Positions 5,736 to 26,156 of a stretch of 35,782 bases of DNA are shown one piece after another (position 1 is the first letter of the stretch; each line of letters begins with the position of its first letter). The notes beneath the pieces were generated by a model, which did not search any database, was not told the origin of the DNA, and saw only the letters and a list, made by a program, of their open reading frames with translations. Location of the stretch: contig CALXSR010000016.1 of assembly GCA_944391215.1 (NCBI GenBank), forward strand, positions 1 to 35,782. The letters are read 5' to 3'. The position numbers and the translations under genes are program-made. This DNA comes from an uncultured Clostridia bacterium. GTDB taxonomy: Bacteria > Bacillota > Dehalobacteriia > UBA4068 > CALXSR01.

Positions 5736-5891
5736 TTAGCGTCTGAGACTTTCTCTCTTCGCCCGGTATTTTTTGCGGGTCGCTTCACCGCCCCGCAAAT
5801 GGCGTTCTGCCTTGTTATTTTCCAGGATGTCCCGCACTCTGGCAGCAATCATCTCATTGATGAGAGGCAGTCGTTCGGTAACATCTTTATG
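5736..5891 (-). CDS. spoIIID: SpoIIID, C-terminal segment (gene split by 20-kb element)
   Basis: This segment encodes the end of SpoIIID, a small DNA-binding regulator of mother-cell genes during sporulation. From the junction it reads H-KDVTERLPLINE, then ILENNKAERHLRGGEATRKKYR and a basic tail, the characteristic SpoIIID C-terminal half with the basic region needed for DNA binding. The codons before VHKDV (5892 upward) do not resemble SpoIIID and have no ribosome site, so this piece is not expected to be translated alone. The missing N-terminal 38 codons are at 26156-26043 on the same strand. Joined at the shared CA, the gene has 88 codons, near the usual 80-95. mbl follows, as in related genomes. 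Confidence 0.9.
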   Translation of the reverse strand, partial: HKDVTERLPLINEMIAARVRDILENNKAERHLRGGEATRKKYRAKRESLRR

Positions 5892-5916
5892 TACTGCCGT
5901 AACCAAATGGAAACAG
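5877..5916 (-). other. Left element-chromosome junction (P half-site joined to spoIIID C-terminal half-site)
   Basis: Minus strand: arm GTTTCCATTTGGTTAC (5899-5914), seven bases GGCAGTA, core CA (5891-5890), then spoIIID sequence TAAAGATGTTACC. The arm is the inverted partner of the one at the right junction. The core choice is supported by equal arm-to-core distances at both ends and by the in-frame product. Confidence 0.85.
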
Positions 5917-5982
5917 TTTCCTTTTTTGCATACACAAATTTTACATAACACGCAAGATACCTAAAGTACGGTTGCTTTCCGA

Positions 5983-7044
5983 TTACCTTTTTTCGCGCGC
6001 ACAGATCTTACAGGTTTGACAACCACCACACTGGCTTTGTTGCATTTCAATCGCCGCCAAATCATATCCCTCTGCCAAAGCACCGTAAGTTTCTTCACAG
6101 TAAATTTTACCGACATCCAAAGCATCCATATCTTGCCATACATCATAGAGCGGGCAATAAGAAATTTCTAGTATAAAACCATTTTCATCTTCTGTTTCTG
6201 TTGAAGTCCATAAATATTCATAAGGTAAATCATGATGTGCAAAACACATTCTGGCTTTACTCATATCGTGCCGATCCAAAGACTGATGTTCGCCTAATAA
6301 CATTTCTCCCCGATAACGACTAAATTTACGTAACCCTTCCCGCAATACTGCCTCGCCGGCCAGACCTTCTGCCAATAATTCTTTGGCAAAGGTAGCATAG
6401 CGCGCCCCATGCAGGCGGCTGCCGCGAATCAACGCTTTTTGCGCGGCTTCTTCATTGGTTTTGGGCATATAATTTTTCGCCAGTTTTTTACCCAATTCAC
6501 TTACCGGCCCCCAATTCGGTTCTTTTTCATCCGGCAACATAGTCCAAGTAAAAGCGCAATGGTCATCGCCTTTTTTCATCAGGTTTTGCGGGATCACCAC
6601 ATGGGCGTTCGGATGATAGGTATGCGCGCAGGATTCATGAAATTCATCACAATAAACATGCCCCCAACGCCAAAAGTTATGTCCTTACCACACGACAGAA
6701 GCAGGGCATTCATAAACATCGTATACTGTTTTACAAGGGGAAAACATTTTTCCGCCGGCAGAATCTCCCACGCTGATTAGGCCGCTGGCACTATCCCAAT
6801 GGGTTTGCAAAGTTTCCATATTGATGGGTAAACCCAAAGCCCGATGGGCCTCTCGTAATTCATAACCACGGAATTCCCCATAACGACGCAAATGGCGACG
6901 AATAATAGGCTCAGCTCGATCGCCCAGCTGTCGTACTGCCTCTTCTGCTAAAAACATATACATAGCAGCACTGGTACGTAATAACCGACTTGTTTCCTCT
7001 CTTAATAAAGCATATGGTTGTTTTTTTACATCACGCAGAGTCAT
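5983..7044 (-). pseudogene. ATC-hydrolase-like two-repeat protein, interrupted by an in-frame TAA
   Basis: Two stretches (7044-6685 and 6684-5983) are in the same frame and separated only by a TAA at 6687-6685. Read through, the 353-codon gene is a tandem duplication resembling the L-2-amino-thiazoline-4-carboxylic acid hydrolase family. Repeat 1 has IIRRHLRRYGEFRGYELREA, then TVYDVYECP and, after the stop, HVYCDEFHESCAHTYHPNAH. Repeat 2 has LREGLRKFSRYRGEMLLGEH, then ISYCPLYDVW and KIYCEETYGALAEGYDL. The stop falls inside the Cys-rich active region of repeat 1, and similarity continues directly after it. The C-terminus ends in C-GG-C-QT-C-KI-C, a CX2CX2CX2C tail suggesting metal or Fe-S binding. 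The start at 7044 has GGGGGG eight bases upstream; a GTG at 6600 could restart the second part. Substrate is unknown. Confidence 0.7.
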
Positions 7045-7136
7045 AAACAAAACCCCCCTCTTCTTTTTGGCAGGCTTCGTGCTGTCTCTTTTGTCAAAGG
7101 CCGATGCAGAAACTATAATGCTATCTGCCTAATTCC

Positions 7137-7165
7137 ATTAAAACAAATGCATAGGAAAAAGTCAA
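7137..7165 (-). promoter_or_regulatory. Predicted sigma-A promoter of the ATC-hydrolase-like gene
   Basis: TTGACT (7160-7165), a 17-bp spacer and TTTAAT (7137-7142), each one base from consensus, about 90 bases upstream of the start. Confidence 0.55.
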
Positions 7166-7205
7166 TAACTTATTCTTATAATACAAGCTTATTACTAACA
7201 AGCCA

Positions 7206-7232
7206 CAAAAAAAGCGCCCTACGGCGCTTTTT
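7206..7232 (-). terminator. Rho-independent terminator after the SLH phosphodiester glycosidase gene
   Basis: A perfect 10-bp stem (7209-7218 with 7223-7232, AAAAAGCGCC/GGCGCTTTTT) with loop CTAC, ten bases past the stop, ending in a T run on the minus strand. Confidence 0.85.
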
Positions 7233-7242
7233 CGGAAACGGT

Positions 7243-10200
7243 TTAATATAACCCAAATAATATTTTAGCAAATTCCGCCCGGGTAATATTAGCGCGCGGC
7301 TGTACGCTGCCATCCTCATAACCGCCAACAATCCCCAAGGAAGTTAACAAATCCACGTAATCTTTGGCCCAAGGTTGTATGGTATCCTTATCCGTGAAAT
7401 CTTTGGCATGCACTGCATATCCTTTTGGGAAAGTGCGGCCAATAACAGTCATTACTTCCGCCCGCGTAATCGAATCATTCGGCAAAAAGGCCACGGTACC
7501 GTCCACCATAGCGCTACCCATCATAATCCCGGCATCATATACCGCCTGTACGGAATCAAAAGCATAGGTCGGAATACTGTCTTTATCCGTAAAAGGCAAT
7601 TCCGTACTATTTTCCGTATTCAACTGTAAATAACGTGTCATAATAACGGCAAATTCCGCTTTGGTTAAATTACGACCTGGATAATATTGCAAAACTCCCT
7701 GTGCATCTTCTTCCCCTTTTACCAAATTATGCGCGGCTACAAAATTCACATAATCATTGGCCCAATGTTCGGCGGTCATATCGGCAAATAATTGAGTAGC
7801 AGCGGCACCTTCCGCAGCATTTACTTTTATTTGTCTGCTTACGCGCGCTAAATTACCGGTCGCATCTTTTGCTTCTATGGTAATTTGGTGCAAGCCAGCG
7901 GTCAAGGCCGGCGTGGTAAAAGAAATATTACCGGTAGAGGCATTGGTGTGAAAAGAAATGCTAACGCCATCCACTTTTACAACAATTTGTTTTTCCGCAA
8001 CCGCATAACGGCCATTATCGTCCGTTACTGCGGCAACGATTTGCACCGTATCATTTTCCACGCTTGTTTCCGGCATACTCGTAAATACAATTTGCGGTGC
8101 AATGCGGTCAAAAGAAGTATCATTGGTTACCAATAATTGGTCTAAGAAGAAATAACCGGCGTCAATATCACCTTTTTCTATGGTAAAGCCGGTAAAGGTT
8201 TTTGCTCCTTCCGGTAAAGTTGCCGTTAAAACTTGATAAGAACGTTCCGTAATCGCCGGACTAAAAGCAATCTGGCTGATATTGCCGGAAGCATCCGTAA
8301 TATTCGCATATAAATTGGTATCCGACTGATCGCCATACACCATTACTGCCAGCAATTTTGCTTCTTCTCCTAAAGCGCGCGGGGAAAAATAAATTTGATC
8401 ACTTTCTGCGTTTTCCAAATGATATTCCCAGCGTAATGCTTTTTCCCCATAAGCAACAGGCTCGGTTGCCAAACTCAAATTGCTATTGGCACTAGCGGTA
8501 AAAGCTATTTCATTTTCAAAATCCGCCAAAATGCTGATATTACTGGTTTGCGGGGCGCCTAATCCCACATTTACCGGGATTTTCTTGGTGAAGCCGTTAT
8601 AGGAAACAATTAAACTACCGGATTGCAATTCATTACCGGCCGTAAAAACACCATTTTCATCAATAGAACCCACGTTGCCTTCTATCTGCCATTGCAAATT
8701 TTGCACCGTTACTGCAACGGCATTTCCTTTATACGTGGCTTCCGCCTTTAAATTTATTATTTCCCCAGGCGTTACTTCCAAAGAACTTAAGGCAACATTC
8801 GCCCCTTCTTTTTGAATGGACAAGCCGTCAATGGCAGAAATAATAGTAACATATTGGCTGCCGCCGGCACCTTCTGTAGAACTGGCGGATATTCTCACTT
8901 CTCCTGTTTTGTTACCGGCCGTAAAAACACCGTCAACAGCCGAACCCATTTCATTTTCTACCGTATAGGTGATAGCGCTTGGCACAGTTGTGGGATAGTA
9001 GCCACTATCGGTGGCTTTCACTGTAATTTTGGTGGAAGCGCCCGGCAATAAATAGCGATATTCCGGATACAAATGCAAATTGCTGGCATTGCCGGTTTTT
9101 GGCGCATTATTGATCAATAAAATATAATTTGCACAGGCCCGTAAAGAACCACCGGAAGGACGATTCACAACGGTAGGCAATTCATCACCCGGCATTTGTA
9201 CGGCAATCGCTGAAGAACCGCCGCCATCTAAATTAATGGCATTGACACAACCTAAATTTAACATTTCCTGCGCCAATTGTTCCGGGCTCATGCCCATGCT
9301 AAAACCGTTTTGCCGCCCATCCACTTCATAAAGGATCAAGGTACCGTCTGCCTTTACCCCAACCGCACTGCGCGGATGATTGCCAGTCGGGTTACCAGTT
9401 GTAACAATTTCACCATTGACAACTAAATTTTTACCGCCTACAGCAAACTGCACATCTTGCCAATTAGAATCGGTATTGGTTACAGTAAAGGTTAAAATAT
9501 CCCCAACTTGATATTCGGGCAAACGGCTAACAGGACCGGTGGCCGCCACAGTCAATACCATTTGATTATCGCCAATGGGAGTAGAAACGGCAGTTTCTTC
9601 CATACTTACCACCCGTAATTTTACCCCAGCCCCGTTTACCGTAACAGGGGTATCGTCTAAGCGTTCCAGCACAATATTTTTTCCTGCCGTTTTAATCCTG
9701 GTTTCACGGCTAAAATTGCGGTCCAGTAAACAAATCACACTTTCGGAACGTGCTTTATTAAAATTATCGATGGTCACTTCGCCGGTTGGCCCGGATAATA
9801 TCATCGCCGTACTTGGCTTACCGATCACAGCACTGCCATCCGCTTTAAAACCCACTGCATATTGACCGACATTCGAAGAAATAAAAGTACCATTTTGAAT
9901 CACCATACCAATTGGAATCCCGGTTGCGGTATCAAAAAAGTCAGCATTGATGGCGGCAATCACTTCTTTCCCTTGCGCTTGTACAAAATCAATAACCGTG
10001 GAAATGGTGGAAGTGCCATACAAACCACTACCATAGGCAATGATGGGCATAACATTGGAATTGGGTTGATAGGTAATATAATTAACCTTTTGCAACCCAT
10101 TGGCGTTTTCCCCATCAATATCATAATAAGCAGCTCCTTGCCCAATAGAATAAACCGCCTGAAAAGCGGAAGTTAAGGCAAATGCCGGGCTGGCGCTTAA

Positions 10201-10254
10201 AGCAATCACCAGTATAGTGGCCAATATCGATTTAAGCAAATGGCGTTTTTTCAT
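7243..10254 (-). CDS. SLH-anchored phosphodiester glycosidase (NAGPA/DUF2233) family protein
   Basis: A 1003-aa exported protein. The start at 10254 gives a clean signal peptide (MKKRHLLKSILATILVIALS, cleavage after AFA); an in-frame start at 10353 lies in a non-signal sequence before it. Residues about 90-390 form a phosphodiester glycosidase-type domain, with NADFFD, RSAVGVKADGTLILYEVDGR and NAINLDGGGSSAIAV, related to the enzyme that uncovers mannose-6-phosphate and to bacterial wall or exopolysaccharide proteins. Two Big-like beta domains follow (about 395-580), then a carbohydrate-module-like region and a bacterial Ig-like domain (about 730-815). Three C-terminal SLH motifs (about 825-1003; MTAEHWANDYVNFVAAHNLV, RAEVMTVIGRTF, RAEFAKILFGLY) attach it to the wall. 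The substrate could be a phosphate-linked surface glycan; this is inference. It lies inside the spoIIID element. Confidence 0.82.
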   Translation of the reverse strand: MKKRHLLKSILATILVIALSASPAFALTSAFQAVYSIGQGAAYYDIDGENANGLQKVNYITYQPNSNVMPIIAYGSGLYGTSTISTVIDFVQAQGKEVIAAINADFFDTATGIPIGMVIQNGTFISSNVGQYAVGFKADGSAVIGKPSTAMILSGPTGEVTIDNFNKARSESVICLLDRNFSRETRIKTAGKNIVLERLDDTPVTVNGAGVKLRVVSMEETAVSTPIGDNQMVLTVAATGPVSRLPEYQVGDILTFTVTNTDSNWQDVQFAVGGKNLVVNGEIVTTGNPTGNHPRSAVGVKADGTLILYEVDGRQNGFSMGMSPEQLAQEMLNLGCVNAINLDGGGSSAIAVQMPGDELPTVVNRPSGGSLRACANYILLINNAPKTGNASNLHLYPEYRYLLPGASTKITVKATDSGYYPTTVPSAITYTVENEMGSAVDGVFTAGNKTGEVRISASSTEGAGGSQYVTIISAIDGLSIQKEGANVALSSLEVTPGEIINLKAEATYKGNAVAVTVQNLQWQIEGNVGSIDENGVFTAGNELQSGSLIVSYNGFTKKIPVNVGLGAPQTSNISILADFENEIAFTASANSNLSLATEPVAYGEKALRWEYHLENAESDQIYFSPRALGEEAKLLAVMVYGDQSDTNLYANITDASGNISQIAFSPAITERSYQVLTATLPEGAKTFTGFTIEKGDIDAGYFFLDQLLVTNDTSFDRIAPQIVFTSMPETSVENDTVQIVAAVTDDNGRYAVAEKQIVVKVDGVSISFHTNASTGNISFTTPALTAGLHQITIEAKDATGNLARVSRQIKVNAAEGAAATQLFADMTAEHWANDYVNFVAAHNLVKGEEDAQGVLQYYPGRNLTKAEFAVIMTRYLQLNTENSTELPFTDKDSIPTYAFDSVQAVYDAGIMMGSAMVDGTVAFLPNDSITRAEVMTVIGRTFPKGYAVHAKDFTDKDTIQPWAKDYVDLLTSLGIVGGYEDGSVQPRANITRAEFAKILFGLY

Positions 10255-10339
10255 AAAATACTTCAACCTCTCGTTTCTATTTCCCCTATTTTTACTAGAA
10301 TAACAAAAAAATGGTCGGAATCCTAAGGCAATATTTAAC

Positions 10340-10365
10340 AAAAAGGCTGCCATAAAGCGGCAGCC
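10340..10365 (-). terminator. Rho-independent terminator after the recombinase gene
   Basis: Stem GGCTGCC/GGCAGCC (10345-10351 with 10359-10365) is followed on the minus strand by TTTTT. It isolates the recombinase transcript from the downstream SLH gene. Confidence 0.75.
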
Positions 10366-10479
10366 GGCAGATTCCTATTTTTAATTCATTTTGCCAGATG
10401 TGTTCACAGCTTTATTGTTTATTATACCGTATTTCACCGTTTCTGTCATCTAAACAAAAGCATATTTTCCACGCGATTT

Positions 10480-11994
10480 TTAATTTTCACAAAAACTTCT
10501 TAAAACCACTTTGACCTCTTGCTCCTCACTAATTTCTATTCGATCCAGCACTTTTTTCCAAAAGGTATTGTTCAAAATTTCCATTCGAAAAAGCTGTTCT
10601 TTTTTACTGCAATACTTTTCCTTAAAGATATTGTTATTTTTTCCTTGCGCTTTTATCTGGTCATTTTCTGTGCTTACTTTTTGCCAAAAAGCAATTTTTT
10701 TCTCTAAGGGCCGCATACGATATTGTAATTCTTCCAAACAAATAATATCCGCTTCAAACAGCTGCAGCTGCTTTTCCTTTTTTTTCTGCAAGGCCGCCAA
10801 TTCTTGTTGCTCTTTTGGTCTAGACAATTTCGCAACACTTCCTTGACTTAATTGCATGAATTCTTGCTGCACTTTTTGTAATAAAACCGCCTCCTGTGGA
10901 AAAAAATGCCAACAATATTCTGTTAAAGCCGCAAACAAATCCTCTTCCGCTAAAAAAGTTTTGTTTGCACAATAATCTACCCCATATTGATTGCGCCCGT
11001 TACAGGCCCAACGGACATAATAGCCTTCTTTTTTCTTTTTCTGAATACGACGGAAAGTGCTACCACAATGCGCGCAATATAATAAATTACTAAAAAGATA
11101 ACGATTCGAGTTTCTTTGTTTTAATTGCTGCATTTGCTGCGCCTTTTGGTATAACTTTTCCTGCACAGCCCAAAAAACTTCCGGCTGAACAATAGCCAAC
11201 TCTTCTTTATGCACAATCTGCCAATCCGTCGTATCCGCTTTTTCTCGATGCCCCGTTAAATAATCATCCACATATTCTTTGCCATTGATGACGTCTCCAA
11301 TATAAAGACGATTCCGTAAAATGCGCGAAATGGCGTTTTGGCTAAAGGAACAATCTTTTTTGCTACGATACCCGGCTGCATTTAAGTTTTCGGCAATTTG
11401 CCGCATGCTCAAATCACGATAACCATAATCATGGAAAATCGTTCTTACCACTTGCGCTTCTATGGCATTCACACGCAAACAAAAATACTCCCCCGGTATT
11501 TTATCATAACCATAAACCAAATTGGGCACTTTGCCATTGGCTGCATTTTTCTTTTTACCAAATTTTACCCTTTTGGATAAATTCGCGCTTTCTTCCTGGG
11601 CAACGGCGGCTAAAATGGTTAAAGTCAGTTCTCCATCATTCAAAGACATATTGGCGGTAAGAAACTGACAATCAATATGTAAAGCTTTTAGCCGACGAAT
11701 GCTTTGCAAAAAATCCACCACATTTCTGGCCAAACGGGAAATATCTTTTACAAAAACCCGTTCAAAAAGGCCTTTTTCTGCATCCGCCATCATTTGCTGA
11801 AAGGCCCAACGATTTTTTAATTTGGTTCCACTAATCCCCTCATCGGCATACAATTTCACCAATTCAAAGTTATTTTTTTGTGCATAGTCATAAAAAAATT
11901 CTTTTTGCGCTTTTAAACTCAGCAACTGATCATCCTTATCGGTAGAAACCCGGCAATAAGCAGCTACTTTCGTTTTAGGCGCCGAAATAGTCAC
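10480..11994 (-). CDS. Large serine recombinase, SpoIVCA-like
   Basis: A 504-aa site-specific recombinase that cuts and rejoins DNA through a covalent serine link. The N-terminal resolvase domain (about 10-150) has YCRVSTDKDDQLLSL with the catalytic Ser, GISGTKLKNR, FVKDISRLARNVVD and the helix AAVAQEESANLSKRVKFG. The recombinase DNA-binding domain follows (about 165-270; LSMRQIAENLNAAGYRSKK and ISRILRNRLYIGDV). A zinc ribbon (about 303-350) has CAHC and later Cys residues in RWACNGRNQYGVDYC. A Gln/Lys-rich coiled coil with a short tail completes it, all typical of the family. The GTG start at 11994 has GAGGTGA upstream and overlaps the preceding ORF by 20 bp. It lies about 4.6 kb inside the left boundary and is the obvious enzyme for the att junctions. 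Sporulation-specific expression cannot be seen. Confidence 0.92.
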   Translation of the reverse strand: MTISAPKTKVAAYCRVSTDKDDQLLSLKAQKEFFYDYAQKNNFELVKLYADEGISGTKLKNRWAFQQMMADAEKGLFERVFVKDISRLARNVVDFLQSIRRLKALHIDCQFLTANMSLNDGELTLTILAAVAQEESANLSKRVKFGKKKNAANGKVPNLVYGYDKIPGEYFCLRVNAIEAQVVRTIFHDYGYRDLSMRQIAENLNAAGYRSKKDCSFSQNAISRILRNRLYIGDVINGKEYVDDYLTGHREKADTTDWQIVHKEELAIVQPEVFWAVQEKLYQKAQQMQQLKQRNSNRYLFSNLLYCAHCGSTFRRIQKKKKEGYYVRWACNGRNQYGVDYCANKTFLAEEDLFAALTEYCWHFFPQEAVLLQKVQQEFMQLSQGSVAKLSRPKEQQELAALQKKKEKQLQLFEADIICLEELQYRMRPLEKKIAFWQKVSTENDQIKAQGKNNNIFKEKYCSKKEQLFRMEILNNTFWKKVLDRIEISEEQEVKVVLRSFCEN

Positions 11995-12139
11995 CAGAAA
12001 TCACCTCTTTTGCGGAAAAATAGGCATTTGGCAAAAGATTTTCTTCTTGTAAATATTCATATAAGGCCTGCGCCAATAGTTTTGGCAGGACAGAAACCAT
12101 TTTTTCTTTCGTGTTAGGATTTTCAAAAACCAGTTTCAT
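11975..12139 (-). CDS. 54-aa hypothetical protein overlapping the recombinase gene
   Basis: A small acidic-to-neutral protein with a predicted central helix (VSVLPKLLAQALYEYLQEEN) and no family I recognise. I chose the ATG at 12139, with AAAGGGG eight bases upstream, over an upstream TTG at 12163 that lacks a ribosome site. Its end overlaps the recombinase start by 20 bp, so the two are probably translationally coupled. Small genes beside serine integrases sometimes encode recombination directionality factors, which makes this a candidate; nothing in the protein itself proves it. The upstream region has no convincing sigma-E or sigma-K promoter by eye. Confidence 0.55.
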   Translation of the reverse strand: MKLVFENPNTKEKMVSVLPKLLAQALYEYLQEENLLPNAYFSAKEVISGDYFGA

Positions 12140-12219
12140 TGTATCCGCCCCTTTCCCTAACAAGATATGCGGACAAGTCCTTTCTTAACACAAAAAAAAT
12201 ACGCGCCAGGTTCTTTTTG

Positions 12220-13728: not shown

Positions 13729-13740
13729 AAACAAGCATAC

Positions 13741-16725: not shown

Positions 16726-16765
16726 TGGCTTACCACTCCAAAAAAGTGTTTCAAATGATACATAA

Positions 16766-16794
16766 ATTATAAATGGCCTATCTTTATTTGTCAA
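16766..16794 (-). promoter_or_regulatory. Consensus sigma-A promoter of the crp-transporter operon
   Basis: Perfect TTGACA (16789-16794), a 17-bp spacer and perfect TATAAT (16766-16771). Confidence 0.85.
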
Positions 16795-18584: not shown

Positions 18585-18598
18585 GTTTTTCCCTCCCC

Positions 18599-20389
18599 CT
18601 ATCTTTTCACTACCGCGTGGAAGCGGCATTGTTGCATACACAAACCACATTGTACGCACTTGCTTTGGTCAATCACATGCGGCTCTTTGGGTTTGCCGGA
18701 AATGGCTTCCGCCGGACAATTTCTAGCGCAAAGCGTACAACCACGGCAGAAATGCGGATTAATTTCAAAGGTAAGCAAAGCTTTACAAACCCCTGCCGGA
18801 CAACGTTTATCAACAATATGGGCGATATATTCATCCCTAAAGTGGCGCAAAGTAGATAATACCGGATTCGGCGCCGTTTGCCCTAAACCGCACAAAGAGG
18901 ATTCCTGCACATGGTGACAAAGTTCTTCCAATAAATCCAAATCATCCATGGTTGCTTTGCCTTCTGTGATTTTTTCTAATAATTGCAAAATACGTTTGGT
19001 ACCAATGCGGCAGGGCGCGCATTTTCCACAAGATTCGTCTACCACAAATTCCATAAAGAATTTCGCGATATCCACCATACAGGTATCTTCATCCATCACA
19101 ATCAAACCGCCGGAACCCATCATGGAACCAATTTCAATCAAAGTTTCATATTCAATCGGAATATCAATTAAGGAAGCAGGAATGCAACCGCCGGAAGGCC
19201 CCCCTGTTTGCGCTGCCTTAAAGTTTTTATGGTTAGGGACGCCACCGCCAATTTCTTCTACAATTTCTCGCAAGGTAGTGCCCATAGGCACCTCTACCAA
19301 ACCGGTATTGGTAATTTTACCACCCAAAGCAAATACTTTGGTTCCAGGGCAGCGTTCCGTCCCCAAACTGCGGAACCAATCAGCGCCTTTTAAAATAATT
19401 TGCGCCACATTGGCATAGGTTTCCACATTGTTTAAAATAGTCGGTTTGCCAAACAACCCTTTTACAGCCGGGAAAGGCGGACGCGGCCTGGGTTCCCCCC
19501 GGTTCCCTTCAATAGAAACCATCAAAGCAGTTTCTTCCCCACAAACAAAGGCCCCAGCCCCTAAACGGATATCCAAATCAAAACAGAATTTGGTACCCAA
19601 AATATTATTTCCTAACAACCCATATTCACGGGCTTGACCAATGGCAATTTTTAAACGTTCCACCGCAATTGGATATTCTGCCCGCACATAAATATAACCT
19701 TGCGAAGCCCCAATGGCATATCCGGCGATCACCATTGCTTCAATAATAGCATGCGGATCGCCTTCCATAATAGAACGATCCATAAAAGCGCCCGGGTCTC
19801 CCTCATCCGCATTACAGCAGGCATACTTTTGATCGCCTACGCTATTGGCGGCAAATTGCCATTTTTTACCGGTGGGGAAACCGGCCCCACCACGCCCTCT
19901 TAAGCCAGATTTACTGATTTCATCAATCACCTCTTGCGGCGTCATTTCGGTCAACGCTTTGATTAAGGCCATATAACCATCAGTGGCTATGTATTCATCA
20001 ATACTTTCCGGATTGATCACGCCGCAATTTCTAAGCGCTAGCCGATGCTGTTTGGCATAAAAACGGGTATCTTCCAAACTCCTGGCATTGCCTTCTTCAT
20101 CACGCAATTCATGATATAATAAACGTTCCACAACCCGCCCTTTTAGCAGATGTTCGGAAACAATTTCATCCACATCGTCTACTTGCACCCGGCTATAAAA
20201 AGCGCCTTCCGGATAAATAACCATTACCGGGCCTCTTTCGCATAAACCAAAGCAACCAGTGGTCACAACTTTTACTTCTTGTTCCAGATCATATTCCTTT
20301 AATTTCTTTTCCATTTCTTCGCGGATATCCATGGATTTAAAAGAAGTACAACCTGTGCCACCGCAAATCAATACATGAGATCGAAACAT
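18599..20389 (-). CDS. hydB: NADH/NADPH-binding flavoprotein subunit, HydB/NuoF type
   Basis: A 596-aa FMN and NAD(P)-binding subunit. It begins with a thioredoxin-like 2Fe-2S domain (CGGTGCTSF and CFGLCERGP, about 9-60). The NuoF core follows: GRGGAGFPTGKKWQFA and CNADEGDPGAFMDRS for FMN and nucleotide binding, then GAGAFVCGEETALMVSIEGN. The NuoF 4Fe-4S motif is ESCGKCAPCRIGT. Two ferredoxin-type 4Fe-4S sites end the protein (CRGCTLCARNC and CVQCGLCMQQC). This is the full fusion expected for bifurcating HydB or HndC. It transfers electrons between NAD(P)H, ferredoxin and HydA. It follows the ferredoxin-like gene by 18 bp. Confidence 0.94.
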   Translation of the reverse strand: MFRSHVLICGGTGCTSFKSMDIREEMEKKLKEYDLEQEVKVVTTGCFGLCERGPVMVIYPEGAFYSRVQVDDVDEIVSEHLLKGRVVERLLYHELRDEEGNARSLEDTRFYAKQHRLALRNCGVINPESIDEYIATDGYMALIKALTEMTPQEVIDEISKSGLRGRGGAGFPTGKKWQFAANSVGDQKYACCNADEGDPGAFMDRSIMEGDPHAIIEAMVIAGYAIGASQGYIYVRAEYPIAVERLKIAIGQAREYGLLGNNILGTKFCFDLDIRLGAGAFVCGEETALMVSIEGNRGEPRPRPPFPAVKGLFGKPTILNNVETYANVAQIILKGADWFRSLGTERCPGTKVFALGGKITNTGLVEVPMGTTLREIVEEIGGGVPNHKNFKAAQTGGPSGGCIPASLIDIPIEYETLIEIGSMMGSGGLIVMDEDTCMVDIAKFFMEFVVDESCGKCAPCRIGTKRILQLLEKITEGKATMDDLDLLEELCHHVQESSLCGLGQTAPNPVLSTLRHFRDEYIAHIVDKRCPAGVCKALLTFEINPHFCRGCTLCARNCPAEAISGKPKEPHVIDQSKCVQCGLCMQQCRFHAVVKR

Positions 20390-20407
20390 TACTTCTACCT
20401 CTCTTTC

Positions 20408-20773
20408 TTATTCGGCTGCCCCAATCGTAAATTCCGTAACAACCTGCCTGTTTACCAAATGATCATTTACCACGCGCAAAGCCTTTTCTGGCGTCATTTT
20501 CACATAAGTCGTTTTTTCATTGCCAATATACACCTCAACAATTGGTTCTAAACGACAAATACCAATACAACCCGTTTGCACCAATTTAACATTTTTCAAA
20601 TGCCTTTTATTGATTTCTTGCGCCAAAGTTTGCAATACAGGACGCGCACCAGCCGAAATCCCACAGGTAGCCATACCGACTACTACCCGAATAGAGCCTT
20701 CGGCATTATTTCTCATAGCCAAAGTATCGCTCATATTTTCACGAATGGCTTTTAATTCTTCAATTGTTTTCAT
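20408..20773 (-). CDS. Thioredoxin-like [2Fe-2S] ferredoxin, HndB-like
   Basis: A 121-aa protein with a thioredoxin-like 2Fe-2S fold; ligands are probably the Cys residues in MATCGISAGA and VQTGCIGICRLEP. Such proteins accompany NAD(P)-linked [FeFe] hydrogenases (HndB) and may carry electrons or stabilise the complex. Length fits the family. The start at 20773 overlaps the preceding ATPase gene by 14 bp, and hydB begins 18 bp after its stop. Confidence 0.85.
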   Translation of the reverse strand: MKTIEELKAIRENMSDTLAMRNNAEGSIRVVVGMATCGISAGARPVLQTLAQEINKRHLKNVKLVQTGCIGICRLEPIVEVYIGNEKTTYVKMTPEKALRVVNDHLVNRQVVTEFTIGAAE

Positions 20774-21323
20774 TTACGTTTCCCTCCCTAACCAATCCTT
20801 CATTTTCCTGCACAAAATCATGTATCCATTTTAAAACCTGCGGTTCATCCAATGGCACATGCTGTAAAATTTCTCTTAACTCTGCCGTTTTTAAAAGAAA
20901 ACTTCGCTCATTAAAGGAATATTCATAAATAAAATCTACTTCAGGGCTGCCCTGAATTAAAATCATCATGGTAGATGCCATATCTCCTAAAGGCATACAA
21001 TCAATGTGACGATATACAAAATTTGCTTCTACCATGGTTCCCACTCCAACTTGCGATTGTATGATGAAATGACCTCCAGTTCGTTCCGCCGCCTCTTTTA
21101 ATAAAGGAATCCCCAAACCAACTTTACGGGTGGTACGAGTGGTAGTAAAAGGATCCGTCACTTGCTGTAAAAAGTCTTCCGTCATACCACAACCATTATC
21201 CTCTATTTTTAATCGCAAAAAGTCTTGCCTGGTATCGATCGTAACCATAATTTGCACCAAACTGGCGCCGGCGCGTAAAGAATTTTGGACGATATCCAAA
21301 ATATGTAATGATAGCTCTTTCAT
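20760..21323 (-). CDS. ATP-binding protein, GHKL/histidine-kinase-like
   Basis: A 187-aa protein with a HATPase_c domain in its first 115 residues: N-box HILDIVQNSLRAG, G1 LKIEDNGCGM, F/G2 region TTTRTTRKVGLGIPLL and G3 GVGTMVEANF. There is no phospho-acceptor His domain or receiver, so it is not a full sensor kinase. The C-terminal 70 residues are unassigned. Similar genes recur in clostridial bifurcating hydrogenase operons, between the HydC and HndB homologues as here, suggesting a conserved regulatory or assembly role; its biochemical role is not known to me. Confidence 0.78.
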   Translation of the reverse strand: MKELSLHILDIVQNSLRAGASLVQIMVTIDTRQDFLRLKIEDNGCGMTEDFLQQVTDPFTTTRTTRKVGLGIPLLKEAAERTGGHFIIQSQVGVGTMVEANFVYRHIDCMPLGDMASTMMILIQGSPEVDFIYEYSFNERSFLLKTAELREILQHVPLDEPQVLKWIHDFVQENEGLVREGNVNENN

Positions 21324-21326
21324 TGT

Positions 21327-21833
21327 TTAGCCCAACAAACGATATTTTTCTAAAATACTATGCACATCTTCCGGCACAACTCGGCCATAAACGTCGTCAT
21401 TGATCTTCATAACAGGAGCCAAACCGCAGCAACCTAAACAACGAGTATCTTCAATAGAAAACAAGCGATCGGGCGTCGTTTCTTTCACGTCAATATCCAA
21501 TTCTTTTTTAATTTCTTCCAAAATTTGTGCGGAACCTTTTACATAACAAGCAGTTCCCAAACAAACCCCAATCCGATACTTCCCTTTTGGGGTTAGGGTA
21601 AACTGGGAATAAAAAGTTGCTACACCATAAATGGTTTGCAATGGAATATGTAATCCGTCTGCAATCATTTTTTGCACCTCAATGGGTAAATAGCCATAAA
21701 TATCTTGCGCCCCCTGTAATACCGGCATTAAAGCGCCTTGCACATCGGTATATTTGGCAATCAACTCTTTCAGCTTTTCTTCTTGCTCAGGCGTCCCTTC
21801 AAAAGGAAAATCGGTTTTGCTTTTTTTAGCCAT
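21327..21833 (-). CDS. hydC: [2Fe-2S] subunit, HydC/HndA (NuoE-like)
   Basis: A 168-aa thioredoxin-like 2Fe-2S subunit of the hydrogenase complex, with Cys pairs in CLGTACYVKG and RCLGCCGLAP (the C-X4-C and C-X3-C ligand pattern). It has the N-terminal helical NuoE region with IYGYLPIEVQ and YGVATFYSQF. An in-frame TTG at 21851 overlaps the ribosome site; the ATG at 21833 has GGGAGG six bases upstream, and the adjacent ATG at 21836 is an alternative. It lies between the PHP gene and the ATP-binding protein. Confidence 0.9.
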   Translation of the reverse strand: MAKKSKTDFPFEGTPEQEEKLKELIAKYTDVQGALMPVLQGAQDIYGYLPIEVQKMIADGLHIPLQTIYGVATFYSQFTLTPKGKYRIGVCLGTACYVKGSAQILEEIKKELDIDVKETTPDRLFSIEDTRCLGCCGLAPVMKINDDVYGRVVPEDVHSILEKYRLLG

Positions 21834-21857
21834 CATAATCCTCCCATTCAAAATATT

Positions 21858-22595
21858 TTATCTTTCTTTATCAAAAACCAAAGCCTCTTTTAAAACTTGC
21901 ACTACCGCATAAGAGGAAAACTCTTTTACTGCCAAACGGTATCGCGGCTCGGCAATCTGATACAAATAATGCGCATCAGAATTATGCAAAAGCAGTCGAT
22001 TCCCTATTTCAGCATGTTCTTTTTTCAGCTTTTCTTCGTTTCCCGCAAGACTAATTTCTAAAGCGCCAAAATGCATATCTGGCGTTAAGAATGCCAAATT
22101 TGCAAAAAGTGAATAGGAATCCCGATCCACATGCGCCGGCACTGCCACGCCGCCAAAACGGTCACAAACTGCCTGCGCTTGAAAAATATCAATAGAACTC
22201 GCTGTGGTGAGCAAAAAAGGTTCTTCTTTGATCACCCGGTCTTCTTGATCCATATAGTATTGGGGCCCAAAAATATCCGTCCGGTTTTTTATTTTAGGCA
22301 AGGTATCGGCAACAAAACGGCTCATCGCTTCGGCCTGCTCCACCGTGGGAAAATAACATAACACATGCACCTCTTCCGCGGTATTCCACTCCATGCCCGG
22401 CACAAACAGCAAACCTAAATCTTTACAAACTTCCGCCAAAGCACGACAATTTCCCGCACTATTATGGTCAGTTAAAGAAATCACCTGTAAGCCTTTTAAA
22501 GCTGCCATATTGGCAATATTATTCGGCGTCATATCTTCATCCCCACAAGGAGAAAGCGCAGAATGAAGATGCAAATCATAATATAATTCTATCAT
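21858..22595 (-). CDS. PHP-domain phosphoesterase-like protein
   Basis: A 245-aa PHP superfamily protein; members are usually metal-dependent phosphoesterases. Metal-binding motifs are YYDLHLHSALSPCGDEDM (the HxH pair), LTDHNSAGN, GMEWNTAEEVHVLCYF, PAHVDRD and the terminal NSDAH. Length fits single-domain PHP proteins related to the TrpH group. The start at 22595 is chosen because its ATG overlaps the DRTGG gene stop (ATGA); a longer frame from 22724 has no ribosome site. PHP genes are frequent companions of clostridial hydrogenase operons; the substrate is unknown. Confidence 0.85.
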   Translation of the reverse strand: MIELYYDLHLHSALSPCGDEDMTPNNIANMAALKGLQVISLTDHNSAGNCRALAEVCKDLGLLFVPGMEWNTAEEVHVLCYFPTVEQAEAMSRFVADTLPKIKNRTDIFGPQYYMDQEDRVIKEEPFLLTTASSIDIFQAQAVCDRFGGVAVPAHVDRDSYSLFANLAFLTPDMHFGALEISLAGNEEKLKKEHAEIGNRLLLHNSDAHYLYQIAEPRYRLAVKEFSSYAVVQVLKEALVFDKER

Positions 22596-22918
22596 AATAA
22601 CTGGGCAATACAAGCAGCTAACTGATACGCAGTTTTGGAGCTTTGCAGCACGGTAATATTTTGCTCCTGCGCCTTTTGCAAAACGGGTTCTTCCATCGTT
22701 ACCCCTTCGGCCAAAAGCACACAAGAAACATCAGCCAAACTTGCTACCGCCAATACATTCACATGATTCATAATGGTAATCCAAATATCCCCTTCCTGCG
22801 CTCGACCCATTACCCAGCTTAACAAATCCCCAATATAGCAACCCTTTATCTCCTTGTCCAAATTGCCGGGGCATAAAACCGTACAGGAAAGCGCATCAAG
22901 CAAATCTTTATTTTTCAT
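22592..22918 (-). CDS. DRTGG-domain protein (second copy)
   Basis: A 108-aa protein of the DRTGG type, a small domain also found with CBS domains and in phosphotransacetylase, probably binding a nucleotide or other signal. Landmarks are CYIGDLLSWVMGRAQEGDIW, VASLADVSCVLLAEG and the C-terminal helix region. The ATG at 22918 with AGGAGG upstream is preferred over an earlier frame start at 22954. It overlaps the hydrogenase-like gene by 11 bp and the PHP gene by four. A related paralogue starts the operon at 25020. Confidence 0.75.
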   Translation of the reverse strand: MKNKDLLDALSCTVLCPGNLDKEIKGCYIGDLLSWVMGRAQEGDIWITIMNHVNVLAVASLADVSCVLLAEGVTMEEPVLQKAQEQNITVLQSSKTAYQLAACIAQLL

Positions 22919-24239
22919 GCGGTTTTTCCTCCTGCGGATGTTCGCTAATGGCAATTTCCTGATACATGCGGTTAATTTTATTCTTTAAGATAAAGAAACA
23001 TGCATGCTCGCTGCTTTCTCCGCGCACAATATCTTCCGCCAAAGCCCTGCAATTTGGCGCTCCGCAAGAACCGCAATCCAAACCCGGTAGTGTTTTCACA
23101 ATTTCTTCCAAACGGCGCATTTTTTGTACCGCTGTAGTTAAATCCCCATCTAACTGAAAAATAGGGGCATACTCCAAAGCTTCGGTCCAGTCTAAAATAT
23201 CGAGAGGCAATGCTTCCTTCGGGATATCGTTGGCTGGCGGCAAATTTTTCAACAAACGATAAACGCGAGACTGGGTTACAAAAGGGCTTTCCGCCGTAAG
23301 CACACCGCCCACACAACCTTCCGTACAAGCTTTTAACTCAATAAAATCCAAATCATCCAGTTTTCCGTCTTCCGTTTCTTCCAATGCCTCTATCACATTT
23401 TCTACTCCATTGCAAATTAGGTATTTATCCTGCTTTAAAGCGCGCGCTTCCCCGCCGGAAATACACCAGCTGGTACCGGTGGCCGTCGCCTGACTCAAAG
23501 GCTGCAAATCTTTTTCTTCCAATTTATTCATTTCATTCAGCAGCCCTTTATAAATATCGTCAATCGCCAAAACAGCATCAATACCAGAAGTTTTTACGCC
23601 TACCGGCATACGCACATCCGTAATTTTAGCCGGACAAGGCGCTATTAAAATAATACCAATTTTTTCGGCCGGCAAACCAGTTTTTGCTATGGCTGCTTTT
23701 CGCGCTAATTTAGCGGCTACAATATAAGGGGCGGCCACCGGCAAAACATGCTGGCATAATTCCGGGAAGCGAGCGCGAATTAAACGAACCACCGCCGGAC
23801 AAGCCGAACTGATTACGGGTTTTTTCAACTTGCCTTCCGCCAGCAATATTTTTGTGTATTGCGTAATCATATCCGCCCCGCGGGTTACTTCAAACACATC
23901 GTCAAAGCCAAAATGCAATAACCCATTTAACACAAAATCGATATTATGTAAATTATTAAATTGACCATACAAAGAAGGCGCGGGCAAGGCCACTAAATAT
24001 TCATATAACCCTTCTAAATCTTCAAAATGGCGGTGAATGGCTCTTTTGGCATGATGAGGACAGATTTTAATACACTCGCCGCAATCAATGCAACGCTCCG
24101 CCCGAATATGCGCTTTGCCATTGCGAACTCGAATCGCTTCTGTTGGGCAACGCTTAATACAGTTGGTACAACCTCTGCATTTTTCCGCATTTAATGCCAC
24201 CGAATGGTAAAATTTCTGCGTTTTGTTCAATGAGATCAC
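22908..24239 (-). CDS. [FeFe]-hydrogenase-like Fe-S protein, probably sensory (HydS-like)
   Basis: A 443-aa protein. It starts with two ferredoxin-type 4Fe-4S sites (CRGCTNCIKRCP and CIDCGECIKICP, residues about 19-61), followed by a hydrogenase large-subunit-like domain and a C-terminal Fe-S motif CGSCGAPNCRALAEDIVRGE (about residues 395-414). The three H-cluster regions differ from hydA here: SSACPAV for TSCSPGW, APCPAKITD for MPCTAKKFE, and KACTEGCVGGVLTA for MACPGGCVNGGGQP. Similar divergent proteins are found in putative redox or H2-sensing proteins, so sensing rather than turnover is my inference. The start overlaps the preceding anti-sigma-type gene by four bases (ATGA). Confidence 0.83.
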   Translation of the reverse strand: MISLNKTQKFYHSVALNAEKCRGCTNCIKRCPTEAIRVRNGKAHIRAERCIDCGECIKICPHHAKRAIHRHFEDLEGLYEYLVALPAPSLYGQFNNLHNIDFVLNGLLHFGFDDVFEVTRGADMITQYTKILLAEGKLKKPVISSACPAVVRLIRARFPELCQHVLPVAAPYIVAAKLARKAAIAKTGLPAEKIGIILIAPCPAKITDVRMPVGVKTSGIDAVLAIDDIYKGLLNEMNKLEEKDLQPLSQATATGTSWCISGGEARALKQDKYLICNGVENVIEALEETEDGKLDDLDFIELKACTEGCVGGVLTAESPFVTQSRVYRLLKNLPPANDIPKEALPLDILDWTEALEYAPIFQLDGDLTTAVQKMRRLEEIVKTLPGLDCGSCGAPNCRALAEDIVRGESSEHACFFILKNKINRMYQEIAISEHPQEEKPHEK

Positions 24240-24670
24240 CCCCGCGAATTAATATCAACACGCATTGTAATGGTGGTGCCAATTCCCAATTGGCTTTCTA
24301 TCTTTAAATCATTACTATATTTTTTCATATTTGGTAACCCCATACCGGCCCCAAACCCCAAAGCCCGAATATCATCGGGTGCGGTTGAATACCCTTCCTG
24401 CATAACCAAATCAATATCGGCAATGCCCGGGCCCCGGTCTGCCAAACGCATCACAACGGCTTTAGGGGTAACGTCTACATCAATTTCCCCACCGTCTGCG
24501 TGAATTACCATATTCATTTCACCCTCATACATGGCGATAGAAACTCTACGAATTACATCGGGCGCCATACCCAAAGTTTTCAGCATTTTTTTTACATCGC
24601 TGGCCGCCTGACCCGCCAAAGAAAAATTATTTCCATCCACCACGTAATGCAGTTTCAGAATTTCATTCAC
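24236..24670 (-). CDS. Anti-sigma-factor-like ATP-binding protein (RsbW/SpoIIAB fold)
   Basis: A 144-aa HATPase protein of the serine-kinase anti-sigma group. Motifs are a conserved N-box region RRVSIAMYEGEMNMVIHA, VVMRLADRGPGIADI and GFGAGMGLPNMKKYSND. The GTG at 24670 overlaps the DRTGG gene stop (GTGA) with GAAGGGG ten bases upstream, so I prefer it to the frame opening at 24718. No partner sigma factor or antagonist is seen in the operon. The same gene type recurs next to DRTGG and hydrogenase-like genes in Clostridia. A regulatory role is likely but untested. Confidence 0.8.
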   Translation of the reverse strand: MNEILKLHYVVDGNNFSLAGQAASDVKKMLKTLGMAPDVIRRVSIAMYEGEMNMVIHADGGEIDVDVTPKAVVMRLADRGPGIADIDLVMQEGYSTAPDDIRALGFGAGMGLPNMKKYSNDLKIESQLGIGTTITMRVDINSRG

Positions 24671-25020
24671 TCTAAATTGGCCCCTTCCAATAAACCATTG
24701 GCATGAAGAATCCCGCAAGCGCTAAACATGCCGTGTTTGGTCAGCAACAAGGCAATCCCCTTTTCTTCAGCCAACTCCACAATAAACTCGCCCGGGGTTT
24801 TACCGCATAAAAAAACGATACAACAAATATCTAACATTTCAGCAGTACGCACTACTTGCGGATTTAAAAGTCCGGTTAATAACAAAGAGCGTTCGGTGGA
24901 AAAAGCCAGTACGTCGCTCATCATATCGCTGCCAAAAGCGGTTTCCAATTCCATATCCATGGCGTCTTGACCGCATAATATTTGGGCCTGCAAAAGACAC
25001 GCTATCTCTGCAATTTTCAT
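24667..25020 (-). CDS. DRTGG-domain protein, first gene of the hydrogenase operon
   Basis: A 117-aa DRTGG-like protein. The pattern ACLLQAQILCGQDAMDMELE, ETAFGSDMMSDVLAF, LLLTGLLNPQVVRTAEMLDI and CIVFLCGKTPGEFIVELAEE matches the small domain seen in the second copy. It probably binds a small ligand and may work with the anti-sigma-type ATPase encoded next to it, with a four-base overlap. A ribosome site (GGAGG) precedes the ATG. This is the promoter-proximal gene of a ten-gene run reaching hydA. Confidence 0.77.
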   Translation of the reverse strand: MKIAEIACLLQAQILCGQDAMDMELETAFGSDMMSDVLAFSTERSLLLTGLLNPQVVRTAEMLDICCIVFLCGKTPGEFIVELAEEKGIALLLTKHGMFSACGILHANGLLEGANLE

Positions 25021-25110
25021 CGTATTCCTCCATTCTTTTCCCCAAATGGCAATAGAAGTTAAAACGTGTTATTTTACTTCATTTTATACAATAATAACAT
25101 GTATAGCGCC

Positions 25111-25138
25111 TTTATACCCGGTTTTTTAATAGTCTGAA
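25111..25138 (-). promoter_or_regulatory. Predicted promoter of the hydrogenase operon
   Basis: TTCAGA (25133-25138), a 16-bp spacer and TATAAA (25111-25116), about 90 bases upstream of the first gene. A second TATAAA-type box lies near 25085. An imperfect inverted repeat (about 25136-25162, ATTC/GAAT arms) lies just upstream and could be an operator. I see no Rex site of the TTGT-N8-ACAA type. Confidence 0.4.
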
Positions 25139-25194
25139 TTATTCATATAATACGAATATTTAGTATTTTATCACATCTTATTTCCTTTTGTAAA

Positions 25195-25218
25195 GAAAAA
25201 CCGGCGTATTGCGCCGGT
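25195..25218 (-). terminator. Terminator after mntP
   Basis: Stem ACCGGCG/CGCCGGT (25200-25206 with 25212-25218) followed on the minus strand by TTTTTC, 40 bases past the mntP stop. It separates mntP from the hydrogenase operon. Confidence 0.8.
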
Positions 25219-25257
25219 CATCCTTGTCAATTTTTAGATAGTTTCACTGCTTTTCCA

Positions 25258-25818
25258 TTAGCCTAAAAATCCCAAATGCTCCAATAAAATTTTAATTCCC
25301 ATAACAATCAACAAGCCCCCCCCTAATCGTTCCGCGCTTGATTTTAATTTTGCCCCGCATAAATTACCAATTTTTACTCCCAAAGCGGAAAACAAAAAAG
25401 TGATACTCCCAATAAAGCAAACCGCCGGAATAATTTGCACTTTTAAAAAAGCAAAAGAAATGCCCACCGCCAAGGCATCAATACTGGTTGCCACAGCCAA
25501 TGGCAACATAGCGCGCAGTCCAAAAGAATCATCCATCATTTCATAGTCGGATTTTGCTTCTCGCACCATGTGCCAACCAATCAAAACCAATAAAATAAAA
25601 GCAATCCAATGGTCAATATGCATAATGAAATTTTGAAACTGTGCTCCCAAAACATAGCCCAAATAAGGCATCATGGCTTGAAAACCACCAAAATATACCC
25701 CGGCTAACAAGACATGTTTTCCCCGCACCCTAGAAACGGATAACCCTTTACAAACAGATACGGCAAAAGCATCCATGGATAACCCCACCGCAATAACAAA
25801 AAGCTCCCATAGCTGCAT
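25258..25818 (-). CDS. mntP: MntP-type manganese exporter
   Basis: A 186-aa membrane protein that exports Mn2+. It has six hydrophobic segments in two related halves, each carrying the family Asp motif: VGLSMDAFAVSVCKG and VATSIDALAVGISFA. It ends in a hydrophobic segment with LLIVMGIKILLEHLG. A ribosome site (AAAGGGG) precedes the ATG. A Mn-sensing riboswitch lies directly upstream, which independently supports the function. It is the gene nearest the right boundary of the spoIIID element. Confidence 0.93.
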   Translation of the reverse strand: MQLWELFVIAVGLSMDAFAVSVCKGLSVSRVRGKHVLLAGVYFGGFQAMMPYLGYVLGAQFQNFIMHIDHWIAFILLVLIGWHMVREAKSDYEMMDDSFGLRAMLPLAVATSIDALAVGISFAFLKVQIIPAVCFIGSITFLFSALGVKIGNLCGAKLKSSAERLGGGLLIVMGIKILLEHLGFLG

Positions 25819-25862
25819 GAAAAATTCCCCTTTGCAATCAATTTTCCCAACAAAAGGAGTAT

Positions 25863-25982
25863 AAAAAAGACTTATCCGCCTGTTGCGGATAAGTCTCGTC
25901 GTTTCAAATAAAACCAGGAAGATGCTTCCAGTATGTTGGCTTTACCACGCATTGCGCCGACTACTCCCTTATACCTGGTGTT
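25863..25982 (-). promoter_or_regulatory. yybP-ykoY manganese riboswitch with terminator
   Basis: The minus strand carries the conserved yybP-ykoY parts: GGGAGTAG (about 25962-25969), CATACTGG, and the ACGACGAGAC end. Stem P1 is ACCAGG (25974-25979) with CCTGGT (25913-25918). An 11-bp terminator GACTTATCCGC/GCGGATAAGTC (25885-25895 with 25869-25879) is followed by a T run. Mn2+ binding would favour read-through into mntP, as known for this class. Confidence 0.88.
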
Positions 25983-26011
25983 ATTTTAAAGCAAAGTTGT
26001 CCTCCTGTCAA
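25983..26011 (-). promoter_or_regulatory. Sigma-A promoter of the riboswitch-mntP unit
   Basis: Perfect TTGACA (26006-26011), a 17-bp spacer and TAAAAT (25983-25988). The -35 lies just inside the right P arm, and the truncated spoIIID stop codon overlaps the -10. Confidence 0.85.
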
Positions 26012-26156
26012 GACGAAAGCGGTTCCATTTGGTTACCACCGTGTGCACGGTTGATTTCGAAACGCCAAACACACTAGCCGTTTGTCTCACGGTAGCCGAA
26101 GACTCGATGATATAATTGCTGATATCCAGTACTCTCTTTTGAATATAGTCCTGCAT
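25986..26156 (-). CDS. spoIIID: SpoIIID, N-terminal segment with element-encoded tail
   Basis: The ATG at 26156 has GGGGGAGG seven bases upstream. Residues 1-38 match the SpoIIID N-terminus: MQDYIQKRV, ISNYIIESSATVRQTA, then GVSKSTVH of the helix-turn-helix. After the crossover (26045-26044) the frame continues into element sequence (TVVTKWNRFRLDRRTTLL) and stops at 25986. The product is a 56-aa truncated protein lacking the KDVTERLP part of the recognition helix and the basic C-terminus, so it should be unable to act as SpoIIID. Precise joining with 5889-5736 restores the protein. No convincing sigma-E promoter can be picked out upstream by eye. Confidence 0.9.
   Translation of the reverse strand: MQDYIQKRVLDISNYIIESSATVRQTASVFGVSKSTVHTVVTKWNRFRLDRRTTLL
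26020..26060 (-). other. Right element-chromosome junction (spoIIID N-terminal half-site joined to P' half-site)
   Basis: Minus strand: spoIIID sequence TCAACCGTG, core CA (26045-26044), seven bases CACGGTG, then the arm GTAACCAAATGGAACC (26036-26021). The arm is the inverted partner of that at 5899-5914. The reconstructed attB is TCAACCGTG-CA-TAAAGATG; the attP has arms on both sides of GGCAGTA-CA-CACGGTG. Confidence 0.85.

Follow-up and report, generated by a model that had tools for sequence, protein, structure and literature searches.

The gene spoIIID, a key regulator of spore formation, is split in two in the DNA analysed here, and its halves can be joined exactly. The window is a stretch of 35,782 nucleotides (nt) from an uncultured Clostridia bacterium (assembly GCA_944391215.1, contig CALXSR010000016.1), and an insert of ~20.15 kb separates the two halves. 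This insert is real and well bounded, and it is one of a large family: the split is one case among dozens of genomes in which spoIIID breaks at the same codon. Judging from its sequence, the insert is quite likely a skin-type intervening element, whose own predicted recombinase would excise the DNA between its ends, attR and attL, probably early in the mother cell, and rejoin spoIIID at codon 38. Few split sporulation genes are known, and the best studied of them, sigK, acts late.

The broken gene and its usual downstream neighbour are placed as follows.

26043..26156, minus strand: N-terminal half of spoIIID, codons 1-38, with an ATG start, ending in GVSKSTVH (PF12116 match)
5736..5888, minus strand: C-terminal half of spoIIID, codons 39-88 plus stop (PF12116 match)
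4547..5650, minus strand: mbl (gene order as in the relative G004)

Both halves lie on the minus strand in the same orientation, so deletion of the intervening DNA rejoins them. The joined gene has 38 + 50 = 88 codons, no internal stop and a stop codon directly after. An earlier sequence-only reading of the window had placed the halves at 26156-26043 and 5889-5736, had them form an unbroken 88-codon gene when joined, and had mbl following; all of this holds, with the refinement that the C half proper starts at 5888. The K of KDVTERLP begins there, and position 5889 is the final base of a shared CAT codon. The same reading took CA alone as the sequence shared at the break; CA is indeed present, but the shared word is GT-N-CA. 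It also called for a search for a second intact copy. Across the bacterium's own assembly (1.79 Mb in 53 contigs, 92.8% complete), PF12116 matches only two pieces, at positions 34-81 and 1-42 of its hidden Markov model (HMM), both above the family cut-off, and no second intact spoIIID is found. In G004, by comparison, spoIIID is intact and is followed by mbl, CuAO, LCP and tagA.

The ends of the insert carry matching sites.

26019..26048, minus strand: attR, core GTGCAC followed by the inner arm ACGGTGGTAACCAAATGGAACCGC (found with a matrix of 38 other attR arms)
5889..5918, minus strand: attL, inner arm AACTGTTTCCATTTGGTTACGGCA and core GTACAT (inverted repeat in common with attR)

The cores occupy 26043-26048 in attR and 5889-5894 in attL. 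The sequence of the right end past the break is ACGGTGGTAACCAAATGGAACC. In reverse reading the left end contains GTAACCAAATGGAA as well, and the arms share an inverted repeat of 14 nt. The attR matrix, from which we left out the window itself, L035 (arm cut by a contig end), L042 (mislocated) and L046 (no arm), gives the window arm 19.1 bits. This is the highest score among 71,516 window positions on both strands, the next best being 12.3. A common core with inverted arms, as expected of a skin-type element, is present at both ends. The dinucleotide at which strands are exchanged is GT or CA, and either yields the same protein. We note that the consensus of the attR arms, TGTAACAAA, resembles the C. 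difficile SpoIIID box KRTAACARK with one mismatch, which may be chance (PMC5025042, cited here for passages from it, as are all papers below).

Inside the insert lies a recombinase gene, as the earlier reading had said, whose enzyme could cut at these sites; a small gene overlaps its start.

10480..11994, minus strand: large serine recombinase, 504 amino acids, with an RVS motif (Pfam; PHROG 'integrase', E 2.9e-106)
11975..12163, minus strand: small protein of 62 amino acids, F-x-NPN family, overlapping the start of the recombinase gene (HMM E 2.4e-5, outside the seed)

The recombinase has Resolvase, Recombinase and Zn_ribbon_recom domains in an intact reading frame, and its RVS motif presumably holds the catalytic serine. 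A possible sister species has a recombinase 56% alike (P0002) and a TypA 84% alike (P0123), each on a single contig of 68,573 bases; the two contigs are probably the same. For the small protein we built a profile from 23 small proteins encoded upstream of such recombinases. Within 5 kb upstream of the recombinase the profile matches at 51 of 72 spoIIID loci, the 23 seeds included (50 of 71 genomes, since G002 was counted twice), at 6 of 12 other genome loci, and at 4 of 57 controls picked by hand from 80 viral-contig loci, these four being the ones with the nearest recombinases. Pfam has no match to the window protein, and NCBIfam gives nothing near its cut-off, only two far sub-threshold matches for the window protein. 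A known fold or family was also sought in the PDB, where an alignment including the window protein found no sequence match at E 1. Because of its place upstream of the recombinase, the NPN protein is a candidate recombination directionality factor.

spoIIID is broken in the same way in many other genomes. We scanned GTDB genomes with an alignment of the recombinase and took the best 80 of 556 loci encoding a relative. At 68 of these 80, all selected by recombinase similarity, the C half of SpoIIID begins between 32 and 2434 nt downstream of the recombinase match. What immediately precedes the C half is not N-half codons but an arm of the ACCGTTCTAATTAGTAACAACCGTACAT type, so the break lies at the same codon, and a codon at which other genomes also break was not hit by chance. 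Among the 80 genomes, spoIIID is in halves in 75, eight of which have only one half found as such: the C half in G436, G437, G457 and G497, the C half with a longer match in G493, G498 and G501, and the N half in G430. As for the other 12 loci, L054, L106, L119, L129, L131 and L133 lie in genomes where spoIIID is also in halves, the L061 genome shows an N half only, the L124 genome has no SpoIIID match, and L069, L100, L130 and L132 lie in genomes with intact SpoIIID. At L061 a CRISPR-like array of regular repeats stands just past the recombinase (about 8600-9800). L081, titled Candidatus Cacconaster stercorequi and placed in Bacteroidota, has the recombinase and a spoIIID C half; its placement is likely a naming or binning problem.

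Could these genomes carry a rejoined copy of the gene elsewhere? In 63 of 68 genomes there is no near-full-length SpoIIID, and the other five (G490, G493, G494, G498 and G501) have an additional match. As rejoined forms these were rejected, being 73-79% alike to the C half over 63-76 nt or giving no match. By sequence, the longer SpoIIID of G490, G494 and G498 look like diverged paralogs, and that of G501 could be a real second spoIIID or a contaminant.

Where both halves lie on one contig they can be tested as a pair. All 37 such pairs, with the window and G204 included, are on one strand and in the order that deletion rejoins. The distance between match starts runs from 2.65 kb (G473) to 125 kb (G474), with a median of 12.7 kb. 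In the latter genome, Marasmitruncus massiliensis (L221, L222), the halves 125 kb apart have the same orientation and a recombinase of the same clade between them. When codon 38 was joined to codon 39, with the frame taken from homology and stops sought in the 38 codons before and the 37-50 after, the frame was open in 32 of 32 pairs (29 of 29 without three titled Clostridium sp.). The sequence-only reading of a skin-like, exactly removable element is thus borne out by structure and by comparison, with a serine recombinase inside, inverted arms, an open frame, no second copy found and the arrangement repeated in dozens of genomes.

Two wider samples place the split. The window's break codon is also that of G002, G020, G028, G030, G036 and G039. 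These, together with G000, are the genomes with halves at this codon among 61 taxonomic relatives, the bacterium's own genome included, of which 53 have a SpoIIID match; only the N half is found in G028, and the N half of G036 is at a contig end. G039 and G020 have a further full-length spoIIID besides the halves, and in G060 the arrangement is related, the N part being present twice. Doubling of this kind, in which an N half with an attR arm is followed downstream by a second 5' copy, occurs at L038/L039 (G020), L042 (G060) and L251/L252 (G444); the second copy is identical over 48 nt in G060 and 97% alike over 324 nt in G444. Among 398 genomes spread evenly over the phylum, 334 have a SpoIIID match. 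Both halves occur in at least two, G204 and G411 (20 were followed up, five of them chosen for having no match), and across the phylum as a whole the split seems to be uncommon. G204 has a complete 6.7-kb element between the spoIID/M23-peptidase genes and mbl, with the recombinase adjoining the C half.

The rest of the window insert is cargo.

25258..25818, minus strand: MntP-type manganese efflux protein (PF02659)
16839..25020, minus strand: [FeFe]-hydrogenase cluster with HydA, HydB and HydC-type subunits, a HydA-like iron-sulfur protein, HATPases, DRTGG proteins and a PHP protein (Pfam)
13777..16794, minus strand: ABC transporter (ATPase, permease, binding protein) and Crp-like regulator (Pfam; the regulator by sub-threshold cNMP and HTH matches, the permease by position and sequence)
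12280..13728, plus strand: lipoprotein-like protein with a copper amine oxidase N1 domain (Pfam)
7243..10353, minus strand: phosphodiester glycosidase protein with S-layer homology domains (Pfam)
5983..7050, minus strand: L-2-amino-thiazoline-4-carboxylic acid hydrolase-like open reading frame (ORF) and a further ORF (Pfam)

This cargo looks like host metabolism, not phage: Pfam finds no phage structural or lysis genes among the 20 ORFs of the insert that were scanned, PHROGs having been run on the recombinase only. The G+C content is 0.42 in the insert, 0.41 and 0.42 in the flanks and 0.37 in the recombinase block, a contrast that suggests a small foreign kernel with host-like DNA collected round it. 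Of the HydA matches in the assembly, that of the insert alone is full-length; the other two are a 27% piece, also in this cluster, and one of 61 codons on contig C15. In G004 (L052), where spoIIID is intact, hydCBA lies ~2 kb upstream on the opposite strand, and the nearness of hydrogenase genes to spoIIID may predate the insert. An inversion may be the source of the host-like cargo, but the hydrogenase proteins of G004 and of the insert are only 31-51% alike. At L040, L043 and L045 the elements each have an AAA-type ATPase gene no more than ~300 nt from the N half, and the three genes are alike.

How would such an element be removed at the right time? The predicted recombinase would cut between attR (26043-26048) and attL (5889-5894), turned to excision by the small NPN protein, and spoIIID would be rejoined at codon 38. 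SpoIIID acts right after sigma-E (PMC5025042), and its gene is under sigma-E control (PMC5025042, PMC3416734). Since SpoIIID is absent before the cut, excision cannot depend on it; the regulator itself is cut free, and the trigger must lie upstream. The timing would be set by sigma-E alone or by another trigger right at the onset of the mother-cell programme. The forespore would retain the insert, so that the cargo, hydrogenase cluster included, would be lost only from the dying mother cell. A possible promoter stands before the gene; given the sigma-E consensus and the published control of spoIIID, it may be a sigma-E promoter.

26190..26218, minus strand: putative spoIIID promoter, a GTTCT box and CATATATT (alignment; partly kept in position in seven intact relatives)

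Several observations weigh against a working skin-type element in the window. Its attL arm is diverged, scoring 0.3 bits and ranking 236th among 71,516 positions with a matrix of 71 attL arms (the window and L103, which is G002 again, left out). Its recombinase lies 4.6 kb from attL, whereas in 63 of 68 relatives the distance is below 300 nt. From these two features together, the window copy could be impaired. The NPN protein was not found at 21 of the 72 loci, some on cut contigs and others with ample upstream sequence. The promoter score before spoIIID is not significant, 42 of 300 shuffles being as good by what is a crude score, and a sigma-E-like promoter before the recombinase operon was rejected because 208 of 300 shuffles did as well. 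The test for selection is coarse, as synonymous sites are near saturation. With that proviso, the ratio of nonsynonymous to synonymous differences (pN/pS) against seven intact relatives is 0.10-0.16 for the N half and 0.06-0.15 for the C half, and none of 496 pairs among the 32 joined genes reaches 1, only two of the pairs being close enough for an unsaturated estimate; on these values the window halves look to be under purifying selection. The own genome is a fragmented and incomplete assembly, and the full-length spoIIID of G020 adjoins its leftover N half. Finally, no excised junction or circle was seen. The sole candidate for a free circle, L119 (L234, G478), was rejected since the following stretch, compared over 98 nt, agrees with the true left end at only 84%. 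We therefore read it as what seems to be a tandem of two spoIIID elements, with an att-like junction inside, and such tandems may explain how inserts grow.

Could the insertion simply be dead, with an element that has ceased to leave, a spoIIID gene that is lost and spores that cannot be completed? The diverged arm and displaced recombinase of the window are what such decay would look like, and G020 has a full-length gene beside the remnant, as if the split had become a liability there. The sequence-only reading had named related splits lacking a recombinase as a sign of a dead insertion. The recombinase mostly stands beside the C half, as in those 68 of 80 recombinase-selected loci; the insert of G020, in which we found no relative of two recombinase queries, departs from this. 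Yet the protein sequence of both window halves is conserved and their joined frame is free of stops, and the recombinase frame is intact, as are sigK (330.9 bits, above the cut-off) and SpoIVA in the own genome. Were the split usually dead, it would be difficult to see why 63 of 68 comparable genomes have spoIIID broken and lack any near-full-length replacement. We consider a dead insertion unlikely.

A second possibility is a reversible switch outside development, in which the element leaves at random or on stress, as a prophage does, and only cured cells sporulate. This would suit a recombinase clade that is also found on a phage contig with an attP, and the yin element of yabG is excised at all culture time points (PMC10747680). 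It fits poorly with an insert that holds the only full-length HydA of the assembly, whose loss would be costly in a cell with descendants. Elements of just 3.7 to 5 kb retain the recombinase frame, moreover, as expected if each sporulation needs excision. We regard this switch as improbable. An assembly artefact or ordinary rearrangement might be suspected in a draft of 53 contigs, but the same codon is broken in unrelated assemblies, including multi-megabase contigs of the cultured strains Schaedlerella arabinosiphila DSM 106076 and Sporofaciens musculi WCA-9-b2, and the inverted arms recur, so this is not an assembly fault and, for the element family, the artefact is already refuted; for the window it is very improbable.

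The preferred reading, a skin-type element in spoIIID, has several known counterparts. Skin in the sigK genes of Bacillus subtilis and Clostridioides difficile likewise carries a large serine recombinase and splits a mother-cell regulatory gene that excision rejoins (PMC5025042). In C. difficile the recombinase depends for excision on a small partner made under sigma-E and SpoIIID, a directionality factor to which the NPN protein of the window is a candidate counterpart, and normal excision needs SpoIIID (PMC5025042). That dependence cannot hold for an element in spoIIID. Skin also differs in its target, sigK, whereas the window element sits one step earlier, in spoIIID, beside an intact sigK of its own; and skin carries prophage genes where the window cargo is host-like. 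Closer in this respect is gin in gerE of Bacillus cereus ATCC10987, which has non-phage cargo, a small transcription-factor gene as target, and a serine recombinase with a small partner, GirX (PMC5595907). It differs in having three recombinases against one in the window insert, and in its gene and hosts. SP-beta in spsM, phi12-5 in kamA, the elements in spoVFB and spoVR, and yin in yabG are also mobile DNA with its own recombination unit in a sporulation gene (PMC6957869, PMC10747680). The fdxN element of Anabaena, too, is excised in development by a serine recombinase, XisF. With an E of 5.6e-34 the window enzyme does match the XisF model, but its 117.9 of 375 bits are far below the cut-off, and it is not an XisF.

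Is spoIIID already known as a split gene? Those named in the passages cited here are sigK, spsM, spoVFB, spoVR, gerE, kamA and yabG (PMC10747680, PMC5595907, PMC6957869, PMC5025042, PMC3416734, PMC12713726, PMC12888040, PMC12424348, PMC11352710). Passages of the open-licence literature yielded no report of a split spoIIID, and a report elsewhere is possible. One paper places spoIIID among the sporulation genes reported in gut phages (PMC12713726) and another describes spoIIID differences between strains of Anaerostipes hadrus (PMC12888040); the relevant passage of each does not mention a split.

Taking the family as a whole, we lean towards a wider claim: that spoIIID is a major hotspot, hitherto unreported, at which excision gates development. 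A single clade of serine recombinases of phage type, with a small partner of its own, would split it across Negativicutes, Lachnospiraceae, Oscillospiraceae and other Bacillota and impose a DNA-cutting checkpoint ahead of sigma-K. In some species (Ruminiclostridium sufflavum, Anaerobacterium chartisolvens, a Flavonifractor) spoIIID and then sigK would be gated in series, and the hydrogenase cluster of the window would be deleted from the mother cell at each sporulation. In a search of 15 genomes, sigK is in pieces, among the matches listed, in R. sufflavum (positions 5-115 and 108-226, ~7 kb apart), A. chartisolvens (three pieces) and Flavonifractor sp. An82 (two pieces); it looks broken too in two Negativicutes metagenome-assembled genomes (MAGs), again among the matches listed. 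The three named genomes (G425, G427, G443; loci L241, L242) also have a split spoIIID, and serial excision gates are possible in them. The window enzyme is 31% alike to the recombinase of one of two sigK-split regions and has no match at 1e-5 in the other. In the sigK region of Flavonifractor, a recombinase is 28-32% alike to three queries of the spoIIID type; the region in R. sufflavum gives no match at 1e-5 but contains a 614-amino-acid recombinase-like ORF.

Such gates matter beyond this window. The confinement of excision to the mother cell becomes testable in a new circuit, and the split occurs in cultured strains from gut and bioreactor. Automatic annotation may accordingly call spoIIID missing or truncated in such strains, and spore-former predictions that draw on such annotation may err. 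With its matched attL and attR sites and one attP, the recombinase clade is also a data set on how serine integrases choose their sites.

The element's probable ancestor is a temperate phage or an integrative element whose recombinase takes part of the helix-turn-helix codons of spoIIID as attB. On the viral contig L134 (62,399 bases), two arms are joined round GTGCAT in an attP-like arrangement directly after a recombinase of the same clade; PHROGs identify an endolysin, a DNA ligase and a helicase among nine proteins scanned. An attP pattern with 27 fixed bases has no match beyond L134 in 2.9 million viral contigs, and a looser pattern gives the same single match; since the pattern was drawn after L134 had been seen, that match is by construction and only the absence elsewhere is informative. 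As an imperfect control for the genome loci, a SpoIIID half appears at none of the 80 viral-contig loci, which mostly have more distant recombinases and whose contigs may be trimmed at the host border. MT838016.1, filed as Bacteriophage sp., has the recombinase followed by a SpoIIID C half. In a quick recombinase tree with L103 left out, the window enzyme groups with those of a Pelosinus MAG, a Selenomonadales MAG, R. sufflavum, A. chartisolvens and Marasmitruncus, whereas that of G002, from the window's own order, falls among Lachnospiraceae and Oscillospiraceae; long branches, the window's included, make the deeper forks unsure. This separate placement would fit acquisition of the element more than once. 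The spoIIID label needs 10 changes on the tree. The recombinase at L100 belongs to this clade as well and runs into an attL-like arm beside a collagen-repeat gene on the opposite strand, in a genome with intact spoIIID, possibly a change of target.

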